This document shows positions 46,685 through 51,071 of a DNA stretch of 61,319 nucleotides, piece after piece (the first letter of the stretch is position 1; every line of letters starts with the position of its first letter). Source of the stretch: Bacteroidota bacterium. GTDB taxonomy: Bacteria > Bacteroidota > Bacteroidia > B-17B0 > Aurantibacillaceae. The stretch spans positions 1-61,319 of the forward strand of contig JANYEQ010000047.1 of assembly GCA_025363015.1 (NCBI GenBank). The letters are read 5' to 3'. The position numbers and the translations under genes were made by a program. The notes beneath the pieces were generated by a model. That model was not told the DNA's origin. It saw nothing but the letters and a program-made list of their open reading frames with translations, and did no database searches.

Positions 46685-46776
46685 CAATAAAGGGAAACAA
46701 GACTTAAGAGAAACAAAAGGCTTTATATTGGTAACAAATTTAATTAATTTTAATGATTCGTTTTTTTATCAATAGG

Positions 46777-47259
46777 TCATTTTTTTGTTATGCCTTTTAC
46801 AAACCGCCACATAACATGGTGTTTTTTTGTTTCAATAAAATAATTTACAAATTCTAAGGCAATAAACCCTATTATAACAGAAACTGTCCATTGAAACCAT
46901 TCAGGTGTATCGTTAACAATTACTTTTTTACGGCCCGCTAAGCCAAATAAATTATTTACTCCCCTTTTTTCTATTACGTAATGTGAAAAAAAATGTGTTA
47001 CAGATAATCCAATTATAAACCCAATTAAGTTTCCTATTACTTGATTAACCACAAACCACTTTATTTTTTTTGGTGTAAATTTTCCCAAAAACGTGGTGGC
47101 TTTTTTTTCAGGTTGGTTCCAAAGCTCTTTAACTTTTTGATAATAAGTATTATTGCTTTCACTTTCCTTTCTCCATTTTAAAAAAGCCTCTCGTTCTTCA
47201 GCACTGTGAACACCCGAAAGGCTTTTTATGATAGAAATACAGGCTTGTGTCTCATCCAT
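46777..47259 (-). CDS. FecR N-terminal-like (DUF4880-type) protein with two membrane helices
   Basis: 160 residues. Residues 1-50 (ISIIKSLSGVHSAEEREAFLKWRKESESN then YYQKVKELW) resemble the cytoplasmic sigma-binding N-terminus of FecR anti-sigma regulators: L-x-G-x-x-x-x-x-E-x-x-x-F-x-x-W and a later K-x-L-W. Instead of the periplasmic FecR domain there are two membrane helices (about 70-92 and 121-142) joined by a basic loop (KRGVNNLFGLAGRKKV), and a basic C-terminus. No sigma factor is adjacent. I infer a regulator or scaffold borrowing the anti-sigma module; the match is by pattern only. It lies 7 bp after the OMP gene, so they form an operon. Confidence 0.6.
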   Translation of the reverse strand: MDETQACISIIKSLSGVHSAEEREAFLKWRKESESNNTYYQKVKELWNQPEKKATTFLGKFTPKKIKWFVVNQVIGNLIGFIIGLSVTHFFSHYVIEKRGVNNLFGLAGRKKVIVNDTPEWFQWTVSVIIGFIALEFVNYFIETKKHHVMWRFVKGITKK

Positions 47260-47266
47260 ATTAAAA

Positions 47267-47938
47267 TTAAAACTTAAGACTTAGTCCGCCAGTTAAATAT
47301 GATATTCCATAACCCGCCTCAGCAAATAATCCAATATTTTTTGTTAAATAATATCTTCCACCCACAAATATTGAAAAAGTTGGAAAAACGTTTCCTGAGT
47401 TTACGTAATAATTATCGGCATATGGGTCTGGATTATTTGTTTCATAATGATAATTTTGAAATCTAAGTCCAGCTAATCCTCCAAAATAAAGTTCTCCCTT
47501 TTCAAAATTTAAAGCGTCGGCATGATACACCCCGCGAACAGCTACCATAAAATTAGTCCAATTATTTCTATAATAATAATTATTGTTGTATCCATGCTTA
47601 TCCCAATAGTAGTTATATGTAGAATAAGCACTCTGGTATCCTAAATAAATACCTAAACCCAAATAACCAGGTCCCAATTTTTTAGGAATGGCATGCTCGT
47701 AAGAAAAACTAAAAGCTGGGCTTGAATGATAACTATAGCCACGCCCACTATAAGCAGAATAATAATTACCGCTTCCTAAGCCTACGCCTAAATTTATAAT
47801 ATTGGTATTTGCATCAAAACATTTTTCTCCACTTTCAGAATCTACACTGGTATTTTTTTTGCCACTTTGAGCATTTGCTATTGTAAAGCTAAAAAGTAAC
47901 GCTGTTACCATTATGCTTTTTTTTATAAAATTATTCAT
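47267..47938 (-). CDS. Outer membrane beta-barrel protein
   Basis: 223 residues with a signal peptide (MVTALLFSFTIANAQ ending near residue 23). The mature part alternates aromatic and polar residues as in a small 8-stranded barrel: NIINLGVGLGSGNYYS, FSFSYEHAI, YLGLGIYLGYQS, ELYFGGLAGLRFQ and IGLFAEAGYGISYLTGGLSLKF with a terminal Phe. The external loops are very rich in Tyr and Asn. An early Cys (EKCFDANTN) is unusual for the class. Ligand unknown. Upstream lie a tandem repeat in the presumed leader and an 18-bp element shared with the ice-binding-like operon. Confidence 0.85.
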   Translation of the reverse strand: MNNFIKKSIMVTALLFSFTIANAQSGKKNTSVDSESGEKCFDANTNIINLGVGLGSGNYYSAYSGRGYSYHSSPAFSFSYEHAIPKKLGPGYLGLGIYLGYQSAYSTYNYYWDKHGYNNNYYYRNNWTNFMVAVRGVYHADALNFEKGELYFGGLAGLRFQNYHYETNNPDPYADNYYVNSGNVFPTFSIFVGGRYYLTKNIGLFAEAGYGISYLTGGLSLKF

Positions 47939-47959
47939 ACATTAAAATTTAAAATTAGT

Positions 47960-48005
47960 CTTCAGTTACACTGTTGCCTGTTCTTCAGTTTTGCTGTTGC
48001 CCATT
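47960..48005. repeat. Imperfect 23-nt tandem repeat in the OMP leader
   Basis: Two adjacent 23-nt units (47960-47982 and 47983-48005) share 18 of 23 positions; both begin CTTCAGTT and contain CTGTTGCC. They lie 22-67 nt upstream of the OMP start codon, probably within its untranslated leader. Confidence 0.65.
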
Positions 48006-48116
48006 TATTTAATTTTGGTTTGCTTACTTTTGGTTAATACAGTTACTACTAACTTAGTTTCGCACTGTAAAGATGAGGTTAAAAAAAATAATTTTACTTA
48101 CAAAAATAAAATATAT

Positions 48117-48134
48117 AGTTATATAATTCACACT
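48117..48134 (-). promoter_or_regulatory. 18-nt operator-like element, copy A (OMP operon)
   Basis: Plus-strand sequence AGTTATATAATTCACACT, identical to copy B at 49625-49642. It lies about 180 bp upstream of the OMP start. A CACTGTAAAGATG segment 54 nt to its left parallels CACGGTACAAAGTTG 55 nt to the left of copy B, so the two regions share a spaced pair of motifs. Confidence 0.5.
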
Positions 48135-48242
48135 TTTATAAAGCGTTACTTTTAACTCCATTAGGCTTTAAATAGCCCAACAAGGCGTTTGTTTCAAAAA
48201 ATTTAACGGCTCTTCTCCCTTTTATTATAACCAGGAATTAAT

Positions 48243-48280
48243 TTAAATAAAAGAAACACTACGTTTCTGCAGTGTTTCTT
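48243..48280 (-). terminator. Intrinsic terminator after the lipocalin-like gene
   Basis: Arms AAGAAACACT (48271-48280 complement) and AGTGTTTCTT (48251-48260 complement) form a 10-bp stem on the minus strand followed by TTATTT. Ends the two-gene operon of the DUF3494 and lipocalin-like genes. Confidence 0.75.
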
Positions 48281-48300
48281 TAAAAAAGATACGGTTTTTA

Positions 48301-48726
48301 TTATTTGGGAATCATGTGAAATTCATATTTATCATTTCCTTCAAGATAATAATACCAAAACGATTTTTCTTCTAACTTAAGAATAATTAAGGTATGTGAA
48401 GATTGTTGACTTACTCCTTTTAAATTTATTTCTTTATCCTTGTTTTGAAACGCCCAAGTACCCGTTCCACCAAAGCTACCCCACACATACGAATAGTCTC
48501 CACCTTTGGTATAGGTTTCGGTATAACCCGACATAAATGATGTATAATCAGACCCATTTTTTTTGGCGTTATCAATTTTCCAAGCCTGAGCAACTCTTGC
48601 TGTTCTTGTTCTAAAACTAATTAACGGCCCGTCGGGGTATTTTTTACAACTTTGAACGGGAAGCATTACTGCCGTAAATAAAAAAATGGCTAGAGATACA
48701 TTTTTAATTATTTTAATTATTCTCAT
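48301..48726 (-). CDS. Lipocalin-like lipoprotein
   Basis: 141 residues. Lipoprotein signal with Cys27 (LPVQSC). The mature start KKYPDGPLISFRTRTARVAQAWKID is a pattern I recognise from a common Bacteroidota lipoprotein group with a lipocalin-like beta barrel; strands such as YTETYTKGGDYSYVWG, GTGTWAFQNKDKEINL and HTLIILKLEEKSFWYYY follow. Probably binds a small ligand or polymer at the periplasmic or outer face. It lies 35 bp after the ice-binding-like gene in the same operon and ends at a terminator. Confidence 0.8.
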   Translation of the reverse strand: MRIIKIIKNVSLAIFLFTAVMLPVQSCKKYPDGPLISFRTRTARVAQAWKIDNAKKNGSDYTSFMSGYTETYTKGGDYSYVWGSFGGTGTWAFQNKDKEINLKGVSQQSSHTLIILKLEEKSFWYYYLEGNDKYEFHMIPK

Positions 48727-48761
48727 AAATATATTTTAATTTGGTTTAGTTTATAAAAAAA

Positions 48762-49517
48762 TTATTGGTTTACAATGGTGTTTCCTGACATAGTGATTGC
48801 GCCATTTCTTGCTAATGCTCTACCAGTAAGTGTTGCACCAGTATTAAACGAAATAGATTGAAGAGCCATTACCGTTCCTTTAAAAACCGAAGTGGTTCCA
48901 AAAGTTGCCGATGTGCCTACTTGCCAAAAAATATTTGCAGCAGAAGCCCCATTGGCTAAAATTACTTTACGATCGGAAGTTACAGTAAGTGCAGATGCAA
49001 TTTGTATAATAAAAACAGCATTTGGATTTCCTTTGCCATCAAAGGTTAAATCGCCAGATGATAATTCTAATGAAGATGTTGACTTATACAAACCTGGTGT
49101 AAATGTGAGTCCGCCAACGTTGCCAGCTATTGCTACAATATCGGTACAAGTTCTTCCGGCAGCATCGTTATATGCGGCTGTTAAATCAAGTTTAGCTTGG
49201 TTGGCAATAGCATCATTAACGTGTTGCGTTCCAACCAATATACCTGGAGGAAAACCACCAATTGACGTTCCTGGGCTTAAACCCATGTCGCCTGTAATAT
49301 TTGTTGCGCCTGTATTTGTAATGCCTGAGCCTGCAAGAATAGCAAGATTTGCTGCGCCAGCCATTGCTACCTGAGCTTGAGTGGTGGTTTGTATGGGTAT
49401 TACAATAGGGTTAGATGTTGTTGGCGAGGTAGCTTCTGTTGTGGTCTTTTTTTTACATCCTGTAAATAAACTAATGGATACAATCGCAATAGTTGTAATA
49501 ATTTTTCCTGTTTTCAT
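48762..49517 (-). CDS. DUF3494 ice-binding-like lipoprotein
   Basis: 251 residues. Lipoprotein signal with Cys21 (SLFTGCKKK), a Thr/Ser/Pro-rich linker to about residue 50, then a DUF3494 domain (about 55-251): LAILAGSGITNTGATNITGDMG, GVTIADQ-like capping replaced by LTAAYNDAAGRTC, GGLTFTPGLYKS, VFIIQIASALTV, NIFWQVGTSATFGTTSVFKG and a C-terminal GRALARNGAITMSGNTIV. Family knowledge: this beta-solenoid fold includes bacterial and algal ice-binding (antifreeze) proteins, but many members are adhesins or untested. It is anchored to the envelope by a lipid, which favours a surface role. First gene of an operon with the lipocalin-like gene. Confidence 0.9.
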   Translation of the reverse strand: MKTGKIITTIAIVSISLFTGCKKKTTTEATSPTTSNPIVIPIQTTTQAQVAMAGAANLAILAGSGITNTGATNITGDMGLSPGTSIGGFPPGILVGTQHVNDAIANQAKLDLTAAYNDAAGRTCTDIVAIAGNVGGLTFTPGLYKSTSSLELSSGDLTFDGKGNPNAVFIIQIASALTVTSDRKVILANGASAANIFWQVGTSATFGTTSVFKGTVMALQSISFNTGATLTGRALARNGAITMSGNTIVNQ

Positions 49518-49624
49518 TTTTTTTGTTTTAGTTTTACGCCACTAGTATATATAAAGGTGAAGGCGTTTTCACGGTACAAAGTTGCAGCACTTAAATATGA
49601 ATGTGTTACATTGCCAAACTAAAA

Positions 49625-49642
49625 AGTTATATAATTCACACT
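49625..49642 (-). promoter_or_regulatory. 18-nt operator-like element, copy B (DUF3494 operon)
   Basis: Plus-strand AGTTATATAATTCACACT, identical to 48117-48134 and in the same orientation, about 108 bp upstream of the DUF3494 start. Between it and the gene is CACGGTACAAAGTTG, whose complement contains AACTTTG, close to a -7 box. Confidence 0.5.
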
Positions 49643-49738
49643 ATTAAAGAGGTGTATTAGAAATCACAAAACAATAAAAACTAAAAGAATAATATGGACA
49701 AGGGGTGAAACTGAAAGGCTACAAGGCTTATGTTTACC

Positions 49739-50956
49739 TTACTTTAAATTAAAATACTCGGTAGCCATTAATGCAATTTCGTTCCCATAGGCTAAACTAG
49801 CTGTAGCTGCGGGGCTTGGGCTATTAATAACGTGTAAGGCATTGCCATTTTTTTCTATTTTAAAATCGTCTAACATTTCGCCTTCGGGGGCTAAGGCCAT
49901 GGCCCTAATACCACAGCGGGCTGCCACAATATCGTCTTGCTCTAAACTCGGAATTAATTTGCGTAACCTGTTTAAAAAATAGGTTTTACTAAATGCACCT
50001 CGGTATTCGTCTAAACCAAAACGCCAGTGTTTTGCAAAAAATTTCCATGTGCCGCCATAGGTAAAGGCTTGAGTAGTATCTTTTAAACTAAATGCTGTTT
50101 TTTTATAACCTTCTCTATCAAATACAAATACGGCGTTGGGTCCGCACTCGGTACCACCTTTTATCATGCGCGTAAAGTGCACTCCTAAAAATGGAAATTT
50201 AGGATTGGGTACGGGGTAAATTAAATGATTTACTTTTGATAAACCTTTTGGCGTTAAATCGTAATAATCGCCCCTAAAACCTACAATAGCGGCGTTAGTT
50301 TTTGTACCCTCTTTTTTTGTAAGCCTATCGGCTTGTAAGCCAGCAGTGCTAATAATGTATTTACCTATAAACTTTGCTTTATTAGTAACCACCGTTGTAT
50401 AATTGGTACTTTTTATAAAATCTATCACCTTTTGACCGGTTAAAACTTTGCTACCATTGGTTTTGGCATTAATTAATTCGGCATACTTTCGGGCCACATC
50501 TCCATAATCAATAATACCGGTGCAACCTACTCTAATACCTGCAATGCCTTCGCAAAAAGGTTCAATTTCTTTTATTTGTGCGCTGGTAATTAACTCTACA
50601 TCTTCTACCCCATTTGCAATACCGTTGTTAAATACTTTGTTCATGTGTGGTAGTTCGCTTTCATCGGTAGCTACTATTATTTTACCACATATATCAAATT
50701 TAATTTTATGTTCTTTAGCAAACTGTACTAATTCTCTGCGCCCACTTACACAATTACGCGCCTTGTAAGAGCCTGGTTTATAGTAAATACCACTGTGTAT
50801 AACGCCGCTGTTGTGCGATGTTTGGTGAGCCGCCACTTGGTTTTCTTTTTCTAAAACCAAAACTGTTTTAGTGGGGTGTTGGGTTACCAATTTTAAAGCA
50901 GTAGCCAGGCCCACAATGCCGCCACCAATTATAATAATATCAAACGTTTGTTCCAT
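49739..50956 (-). CDS. lhgO: L-2-hydroxyglutarate oxidase
   Basis: 405 residues; an FAD enzyme that oxidises L-2-hydroxyglutarate to 2-oxoglutarate, repairing a side product of central metabolism. FAD-binding GxGxxG site IIIIGGGIVGLATALKL (7-23), then HQTSHNSGVIHSGIYYKPGS and KARNCVSGRREL, typical of LhgO. C-terminal AGIRAMALAPEG-like sequence (RCGIRAMALAPEGEMLDDF) and INSPSPAATASLAYGNEIA close the fold. Single gene; the 221-bp region on its left holds operator copy B. Confidence 0.94.
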   Translation of the reverse strand: MEQTFDIIIIGGGIVGLATALKLVTQHPTKTVLVLEKENQVAAHQTSHNSGVIHSGIYYKPGSYKARNCVSGRRELVQFAKEHKIKFDICGKIIVATDESELPHMNKVFNNGIANGVEDVELITSAQIKEIEPFCEGIAGIRVGCTGIIDYGDVARKYAELINAKTNGSKVLTGQKVIDFIKSTNYTTVVTNKAKFIGKYIISTAGLQADRLTKKEGTKTNAAIVGFRGDYYDLTPKGLSKVNHLIYPVPNPKFPFLGVHFTRMIKGGTECGPNAVFVFDREGYKKTAFSLKDTTQAFTYGGTWKFFAKHWRFGLDEYRGAFSKTYFLNRLRKLIPSLEQDDIVAARCGIRAMALAPEGEMLDDFKIEKNGNALHVINSPSPAATASLAYGNEIALMATEYFNLK

Positions 50957-51071
50957 AAAAAAGGTAAAGTTATAAATTTATAGAGATACAGCTTACAAGC
51001 TTACTTAAATTTTAACAAAACCCATTGTTATTTTTTATATCTTAGCTTAATTAATTACTAACCCTTACAGC

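Follow-up and report, generated by a model that had tools for sequence, protein, structure and literature searches.

A conserved two-part promoter element and a candidate AraC-family activator of a predicted stress and envelope regulon in Bacteroidota

Two neighbouring minus-strand operons of a Bacteroidota bacterium share an identical 18-mer upstream of their first genes. They lie on contig JANYEQ010000047.1 of assembly GCA_025363015.1, of which a stretch of 61,319 bases (the window) was analyzed. One operon starts with a gene for a DUF3494 or ice-binding-like lipoprotein of 251 amino acids (aa) (48762..49517; Ice_binding PF11999, E 1.6e-65; lipoprotein assigned by eye), followed as operon gene 2 by a gene for a 141-aa lipoprotein (48301..48726; also by eye) without any Pfam match. 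The other one encodes an outer membrane protein (OMP)-like protein of 223 aa (47267..47938) without a Pfam match of weight and a 160-aa protein with a weak DUF4880-like N-terminus (46777..47259), whose match is below the curated cut-off (E 0.002, 18.4 versus 25 bits). Of the labels that an earlier inspection of the bare DNA (the sequence-only reading) had given to these genes, DUF3494 was confirmed by Pfam, whereas DUF4880, OMP and 'lipocalin-like', used for the 141-aa protein, were not. Here, we describe that the 18-mer looks like the upstream half-site of an activator box with two half-sites, for which binding of a small protein of the AraC/XylS family is predicted.

The 18-mer AGTTATATAATTCACACT is located at 48117-48134 and 49625-49642 on the same strand, exactly as the sequence-only reading had reported, and a second motif at 48063 and 49570 indeed lies 54 and 55 nt to the left of the two copies. 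It is the only 18-mer that is repeated on one strand of the window, and no other match with up to three mismatches was found there. Taken alone, the bare repeat is not significant and no evidence by itself, because about half of the Markov controls of the same length and composition also contain at least one repeated 18-mer (52% for order 1 and 47% for order 3, 60 controls each); the sequence-only reading had rightly warned that a single match of this length could arise by chance. The significance resides in the context, as the 18-mer is part of a composite promoter. In gene direction, this promoter reads AA-WGTGTGAATTATGTAACT, 14 nt, TGTAAC, 24-25 nt and the TTTG of a CWWCTTTG-like -7 box. 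Both window promoters follow this order with AGTGTGAATTATATAACT, exactly 14 nt, TGTAA, 24-25 nt (measured from the sixth base of TGTAAC or TGTAAG) and TTTG or TTTA of the -7 box. The spaced pair proposed earlier is correct with respect to the conserved spacing, but the second motif turned out to be the -7 box, and the real partner of the 18-mer, TGTAAC 14 nt downstream, had been missed.

In the DUF3494 promoter, half-site 1 (AGTGTGAATTATATAACT) covers 49625..49642 on the minus strand, about -70 to -53, and corresponds to conserved columns in alignment A2. The TGTAAC core of half-site 2 (49605..49610) is found at -33, with a distance of 21 bp to the TATAAC of half-site 1 upstream of it, and the -7 box CAACTTTG (49577..49584), which is part of the second motif, sets the predicted start near 49572. 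The OMP promoter has the same layout on the same strand with half-site 1 at 48117..48134 (about -71 to -54), the TGTAAG core of half-site 2 at 48097..48102 and the -7 box CATCTTTA at 48068..48075, resulting in a predicted start near 48063. With these starts, TGTAA is placed at about -38/-33 and the 18-mer at about -70/-53. The predictions derive from the Bacteroidota -7 consensus TANNTTTG, which has a nearly invariant T and a distance of 4-5 nt from the box to the start (PMC6847099). Across the 26 sites used for the profile described below, TTT of the -7 box never varies and A hardly does, C mostly takes the place of the first T, and the last G is A in some cases. The box may be a CWWCTTTG-like variant of the sigma-ABfr box. 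A position-weight scan of the window scored the two sites with 46.6 and 41.9, both of which are in the training set, and everything else below 15. Outside the shared elements the two promoters align with little match, and therefore there is no sign of a recent duplication. We take the DUF3494 and OMP operons as two transcription units, each with a site of its own.

In the own genome, 15 matches to the 18-mer with up to three mismatches were found, compared to 7 when the pattern was reversed. All five matches with 0-2 mismatches and one of the ten with 3 were accompanied by TGTAA at the fixed spacing, a feature that was not used in the selection. These six TGTAA-bearing matches all lie upstream of open reading frames (ORFs), all have the full composite element and were carried forward; the other nine, with three mismatches each, have no TGTAA at this spacing. 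Together with 20 sites upstream of DUF3494 homologues, the six were combined into a sequence-only profile, R1, built from 26 sites, the E-values of which are rough; at least one of the sites (L017) apparently comes from G030, a genome that was searched later. R1 scored the complete composite promoters of the window with E 7.3e-13 (DUF3494 operon, 49574..49642) and 3.2e-8 (OMP operon, 48066..48136), both sites being among the 26 that built it.

Scoring the best 150 of 7,768 first-look candidates of the own genome resulted in at least 15 near-full-length R1 matches at E < 0.002, beyond which mostly partial matches followed. Six of these 15 sites were in the model and nine are new, and every one of them is positioned 2-127 nt upstream of an ORF start (one counted to the second of two possible starts). 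The promoters are spread over ten contigs. Their targets include four DUF3494 (ice-binding-like) genes identified by Pfam, an operon for CsbD, a lipoprotein, an Lmo0937-like and a YtxH-like protein (CsbD and Lmo0937 confirmed by domain search, YtxH by eye), a glycine-zipper lipoprotein (by eye and a match below the cut-off), an operon for a 159-aa lipoprotein and OmpA (OmpA by Pfam), a PD40/TPR protein (PD40 above cut-off) and the OMP/DUF4880-like operon of the window. Lipoproteins of 81 and 286 aa and a coiled-coil protein were assigned by eye, and a 132-aa protein had matches neither in Pfam nor in NCBIfam. The last targets are two signalling units with receivers and a histidine kinase on contig C77. 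A sixteenth, weaker site (score 21.6), which is absent from the R1 listing, precedes an AraC-family gene on contig C140. The genome scan gave no support for random scatter of the 18-mer, which the sequence-only reading had named as evidence against itself. Its proposal that the four window genes form one regulon is well supported by sequence and needs widening to at least 15 promoters.

We also searched upstream of DUF3494 homologues in other genomes. Out of 77 fetched loci, the 31 from Bacteroidota, Ignavibacteria and Balneola were scanned, the other 46 being from other phyla or fragments; L038 (Eisenbacteria, no site) was part of an initial scan of 28 loci and was left out of the final one. 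The composite element was present within 600 nt upstream in 20 of the 31 loci, compared to one of 31 in the reversed-sequence control, and a first pass with only the six own-genome sites had already detected it in 17 of 31. The 20 sites score 17.0-34.9, and 99.9% of 6,200 mononucleotide-shuffled regions stay below 14.1, with the largest shuffle score (18.2) exceeding the weakest accepted site (17.0). The 11 loci without a site include L022, which matches G004:C22 in position and gene and has its site before the preceding gene of the same operon. The element is thus not absent from orthologous upstream regions, another finding that would have spoken against the sequence-only reading, and its idea of one type of activator site above two promoters is well supported as a prediction.

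Within the family sample, sites with R1 E <= 0.001 were present in 21 of 41 genomes. In this sample the best 120 candidates per genome were scored, in a second sample covering the phylum the best 24, and R1 searches spanning 40 genomes lose weak matches. Several family genomes have islands with many sites in 10-30 kb. One island of about 30 kb (G004:C22:2522-31345; L160, L161) lines up, as judged by eye, much of the regulon, including several DUF3494 genes, CsbD, Lmo0937-like, lipocalin-like and OMP genes, kinases and receivers, while the sites of the window's genome are dispersed over ten contigs. In G232, two of the three sites (C28:10104-10173 and C77:5034-5105) lie near contig ends, and regulon genes may be repeated or hard to assemble there.

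Over all fetched loci, own genome and relatives, we collected 142 unique sites scoring at least 25, of which 135 have an ORF start within 250 nt and four more lie at locus ends. Clustering the first downstream genes by blastp resulted in DUF3494 (21), CsbD (12), PD40/TPR (8), the AraC gene (7), receivers (6) and OMPs (6); these loci were mostly selected for having sites, so that the counts describe the targets and are no test. Further targets are BON, ferritin-like/Dps, UspA, AhpC/TSA, DUF892 and SOUL proteins (Pfam, one representative each). The stress-type products (CsbD, ferritin-like, Usp, BON, AhpC-TSA, DUF892) were confirmed by Pfam for one representative each, mostly in relatives. Many unlinked operons with predicted stress-protective products hence appear to share one element. 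The earlier suggestion of a cold-related regulon is not supported, although some cold control is conceivable: the other targets are mostly of the general-stress and envelope type (CsbD, ferritin-like/Dps, UspA, BON, AhpC/TSA). DUF3494 proteins have been described as being involved in surface adhesion as well as in ice binding (PMC12337378).

To analyze the geometry of the box, we compared the matrix of half-site 1 with the sequence downstream of it in 106 non-redundant sites. The similarity peaks when the two are shifted by 21 bp (r 0.64, compared to r <=0.30 at other offsets between 12 and 39), a value that is partly built in, since the site-finding scan used both TGTAAC cores. The downstream columns that were not used by the scan show a resemblance of only 0.24 at 21 bp, with 0.12 at 22 bp and <=0.06 at the remaining offsets from 15 to 27. 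Other unused columns are conserved as well: A, A, T and T lead in spacer columns 27-30 with 0.57-0.72, and the same letters AATT precede the core of half-site 1, while AA at -2 and -1 reaches 0.74 and 0.94. Palindromic self-similarity is 0.14 at a Crp-like centre and <=0.39 at any other centre tried. In our best reading, the box would consist of two copies of AATTATGTAAC in direct orientation with a period of 21 bp; WGTGTG would extend the upstream copy, and the downstream copy would lie at -33. The upstream half-site is strong (WGTGTGAATTATGTAACT), and the downstream half-site keeps mainly TGTAAC. Direct repeats about two helical turns apart, the proximal one overlapping the -35/-33 region, are the arrangement expected of AraC/XylS-type sites and were found here. 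AraC itself occupies such an arrangement at araI1-I2 of Escherichia coli araBAD, where two direct-repeat half-sites are 21 bp apart and the weaker downstream one overlaps -35/-33.

A candidate for the cognate regulator is encoded by the first site-bearing gene of the G004 island, a small AraC-family protein. Its own-genome homologue (G000:C140) has 199 aa and is 76% identical to it. The C140 operon has the order receiver, site, AraC gene, PAS histidine kinase and receiver, and similar AraC-kinase-receiver operons were recognized by eye in G004, G016, G027 and G036 and, outside the family, in G069 and G182. Among the other products of the C140 operon, those that were tested matched kinase and receiver domains, and none matched a DNA-binding domain with any weight. 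Receiver-only proteins encoded beside two sites on contig C77 were also considered as regulators and rejected, since one receiver and the kinase that were scanned had receiver and kinase domains and no DNA-binding domain.

The 199-aa protein matches HTH_18 (E 1.6e-15) and HTH_AraC (E 1.8e-11), both above the curated cut-off, and in NCBIfam AraC-family matches were obtained only below the cut-off. The AlphaFold model (mean pLDDT 84.5) consists of a ferredoxin-like domain (residues 1-63), a helix and an AraC-type DNA-binding domain with the double helix-turn-helix of this family. Residues 64-191 match the corresponding domains of AraT (Z 14.2), MarA (1bl0, 12.6), SoxS (7w5w, 12.1) and AraC (11.9), and the nearest solved relatives of the DNA-binding domain by sequence and fold are 3lsg and 6swi. 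The N-terminal domain (L201:9412-10008, residues 1-63) has no Pfam match. It resembles HMA proteins (GolB and Atx1, Z 7.8; CopZ was also matched) and ACT domains (Z 8.3) about equally, and no row of the fold search separates the two. HMA metallochaperones carry the metal-binding motif MxCxxC. Here, the motif reads MVSxRC, with S10 and C13 invariant in all 19 sequences of alignment A3, and therefore a classical metal site is not expected in this predicted domain, in which a single conserved cysteine remains.

The occurrence of the AraC gene follows that of the sites. In the family sample, all 16 genomes with a homologue of at least 65% identity have R1 sites, compared to 5 of the 25 others (Fisher p 2.4e-7). 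The phylum sample of 198 genomes gave a similar picture: where a close homologue is encoded (best E <= 2e-70), 14 of 15 genomes have sites, compared to 22 of the 183 others, and two or more sites are present in 12 of 15 versus 8 of 183. Relatedness among the genomes is not corrected for in these p values and contrasts, and both samples contain the own genome.

Sites and AraC genes are also neighbours. Among 63 loci fetched by AraC similarity, 36 hold a site scoring at least 15, compared to none of 63 in the same DNA reversed; these loci are mostly 3 kb long; the own-genome gene is represented twice, a few of the AraC hits are partial or from outside the family, and 13 loci come from 12 genomes, most of which were picked because they had sites but lacked a close homologue. 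Of the 20 AraC genes of the regulator family in 12 site-rich genomes, 11 lie within 2 kb of a site among the matches listed, in contrast to 0 of 45 other AraC genes, 0 of 29 Crp genes and 1 of 149 LytTR genes. Not counted among the 20 are a fragment of 53 residues (G028:C104) and a match of 30% (G007:C35), the 45 come from 48 (one gene 5.9 kb from the nearest listed site and two on contigs that have no listed site were left out), and the LytTR count likewise rests on the sites among the matches listed, the weakest rows not being among them. Furthermore, the 400 nt preceding the gene contain a site on the same strand in 10 of the 13 closest homologues, which suggests that the AraC gene autoregulates its operon, as a prediction. 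Distant AraC-family members carry sites at their own loci, too; several of these sites lie on the AraC stop codon or immediately follow it, their upstream box being weaker. In L188, L237, L240, L241, L244, L247, L250 and L197 the start of a related site is at the stop codon or immediately behind it, which makes the following gene look like a dedicated target of the AraC protein.

On the basis of these data we consider it probable that a small activator of the AraC/XylS family binds the box, activates at least 15 promoters as a general-stress and envelope regulon and autoregulates its own gene. Besides the partly built-in correlation and the low resemblance in the unused columns, several observations weigh against this reading. 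Five family genomes have sites and no homologue of at least 65% identity, namely G023 (6 sites, 720 contigs), G040 (8 sites, 56% complete), G032 (73% complete), G031 and G005. In the phylum, G051 and G056 with 8 sites each have only a diverged homologue (profile E 6e-41 and 1e-41), G124, G135, G194, G210 and G214 combine two to five sites with only more distant homologues, and in G232, which has 3 sites (two close to contig ends), no homologue was found. Conversely, G183 has a close homologue and no R1 site at 0.001, with weaker sites nearby, and G144 has a homologue (60%, E 4.6e-69) and no R1 site. The site that precedes the AraC gene of the own genome scores low (21.6) and is outside the R1 listing, and another AraC-type gene (G000:C68:80293) lies about 0.8 kb from a site (C68:81292) recorded only in the R1 search of the own genome. 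Moreover, independence is overstated by the Fisher p values, since the genomes are related, and in some relatives the regulator is located on one island with the targets, which could reflect co-inheritance without a direct link. Because sites occur without a close homologue and homologues without sites, the box is predicted to be read by a diverged homologue or by another protein in part of the phylum.

That the box is read by another regulator, with the AraC gene as a target travelling with the regulon, is unlikely, but has to be taken seriously. Like a target, the AraC gene itself has an upstream site, sites are present in several genomes that lack a close AraC homologue, and the AraC operon also encodes a kinase and receivers. 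However, the tested operon partners in the own genome offer no DNA-binding domain of weight, genes for LytTR, Crp and other AraC proteins are almost never found near the listed sites of the 12 genomes, and a 21-bp direct repeat with its second half at -33 is the geometry of AraC-type activators. Three more specific readers, a LytTR, a Crp or an ECF sigma protein, had been first guesses from spacing and resemblance and were dropped because of gene proximity, self-similarity and the missing CGT. A Crp/Fnr-family protein bound to the 18-mer at about -62 in a class-I position, with TGTAAC as only a variant -33 element, would be in agreement with the distance to the -7 box and with the resemblance of GTGA-N6-TAAC to the Crp box GTGA-N6-TCAC. 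It is nevertheless very unlikely: the palindromic similarity of 0.14 (best 0.39) contrasts with 0.64 for the 21-bp repeat, the own genome has a single weak HTH_Crp_2 match (E 5e-9), and none of the 29 Crp genes is close to a listed site.

LytTR response regulators bind direct repeats with a period of about 21 bp, and their genes are present in all 12 genomes; yet the repeat misfits the LytTR consensus in both orientations, and with a single gene out of 149 within 2 kb of a site among the matches listed, binding by such a regulator is extremely unlikely. We find it scarcely credible that TGTAAC is the -35 element of an ECF sigma promoter. AAC is typical of ECF -35 elements, but the conserved downstream box resembles TANNTTTG, and the upstream repeat would be unneeded. 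The downstream columns also have no conserved CGT, which is reported to mark the -10 element of ECF promoters in Flavobacterium psychrophilum (PMC9723704). There is next to no probability that the shared 18-mer is a chance repeat in AT-rich DNA: repeated 18-mers are frequent in the Markov controls (47-52%), but the composite element recurs with near-fixed spacing upstream of at least 15 own-genome ORFs and in much of the phylum.

For the AraC-type activator, the conserved site and its spacing, the membership of the promoters by sequence, the co-occurrence and proximity of the gene and the predicted fold are observations, from which we infer binding and activation. The 199-aa protein of C140 would bind the two repeats side by side, and the promoter-proximal half-site would place it against the sigma factor, thereby recruiting RNA polymerase to a promoter that has TGTAAC in place of the TTTG -33 element. 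The PAS histidine kinase and the stand-alone receivers of the AraC operon probably feed the signal in. As a result, many surface, envelope and stress operons (ice-binding-like/adhesin, CsbD-YtxH-like, lipoprotein, OmpA and signalling) would be switched on together. More tentatively, and as a possibility that we rate as less likely than not, Bacteroidota could have here a general stress response that operates independently of an alternative sigma factor, in which the kinase and receivers act on an AraC protein with a degenerate metallochaperone-like (SxxC) sensor, which in turn controls a mobile, island-forming and phylum-patchy stress and surface regulon including the DUF3494 'ice-binding' adhesins.

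The DNA-binding domain and the mode of action resemble those of AraC, SoxS and related activators. As at araI1-I2, there are 21-bp direct repeats with a weaker downstream half and an AraC-type double helix-turn-helix domain; unlike AraC, the N-terminus is ferredoxin-like (HMA or ACT type) instead of a sugar-binding cupin and the protein has only 199 aa. Unlike araBAD, the promoter has a -7 box of the Bacteroidota kind, and the box appears to serve many stress and envelope operons instead of one catabolic pathway. With SoxS, MarA and Rob of E. coli the protein shares the small size, a multi-operon stress regulon and, for SoxS and MarA, the fold, whereas SoxS and MarA bind as monomers to one asymmetric site and here two half-sites are conserved and the gene is in an operon with a kinase and receivers. 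The types of targets, such as CsbD and Dps-like proteins, are reminiscent of the SigmaB general stress regulons of Firmicutes, in contrast to which an activator on an apparent primary-sigma promoter is predicted rather than an alternative sigma factor. The nearest solved DNA-binding domains belong to AraC-type response regulators (YesN, AraT) and hybrid two-component systems, in which, unlike here, receiver, kinase and DNA-binding protein are not separate genes in one operon.

A study of start sites and sigma factors in F. psychrophilum described sigma-A variants, sigma-54, a TAnnTTGY motif and an ECF motif, and AraC does not occur in its main text (PMC9723704). Among the matches listed in the open-licence literature, no description of the regulon, the regulator or DUF3494 promoters was found, nor of the combination of this N-terminal domain, a kinase-receiver operon, a Bacteroidota-type promoter and a general-stress and surface regulon spread over the phylum. 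If our reading is true, a large bacterial phylum would have a conserved stress regulon for which a binding site, a regulator and a target list are available. The DUF3494 'ice-binding' genes would be under general stress and surface control rather than cold control, and functions could be guessed for many unnamed small site-bearing proteins.

Some further features of the region and the regulon were recorded. A terminator-like stem-loop with 13 pairs and a T-rich tail (48250..48281, minus strand) lies between the DUF3494 operon and the OMP promoter; its stem and position make it a putative terminator, with 4 terminator-like sites found in the region compared to 3.6 in shuffles. Promoters of the sigma-70 type were rejected, since the scan found 16 of them versus 17.3 in shuffles, and an Rfam search of 46700-51000 gave no match to an RNA element. 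Opposite to the DUF3494 gene, a 160-codon open frame (48892-49374, plus strand) is probably a by-product of codon composition. A protein of 126-132 aa with GIWMDHSxAHLIE near its start (L101:1588-1983, L168:4991-5368, L161:10087-10479) recurs under a site or inside an island and has no match in Pfam (two members) or NCBIfam (one member). Finally, histidine kinases with long tandem repeats of KELAFQNEEKEKRAAEL are encoded in site-controlled operons (L123:783-2390 in G000:C77 and L160:3240-6002), and the copy number of these repeats is apparently variable.

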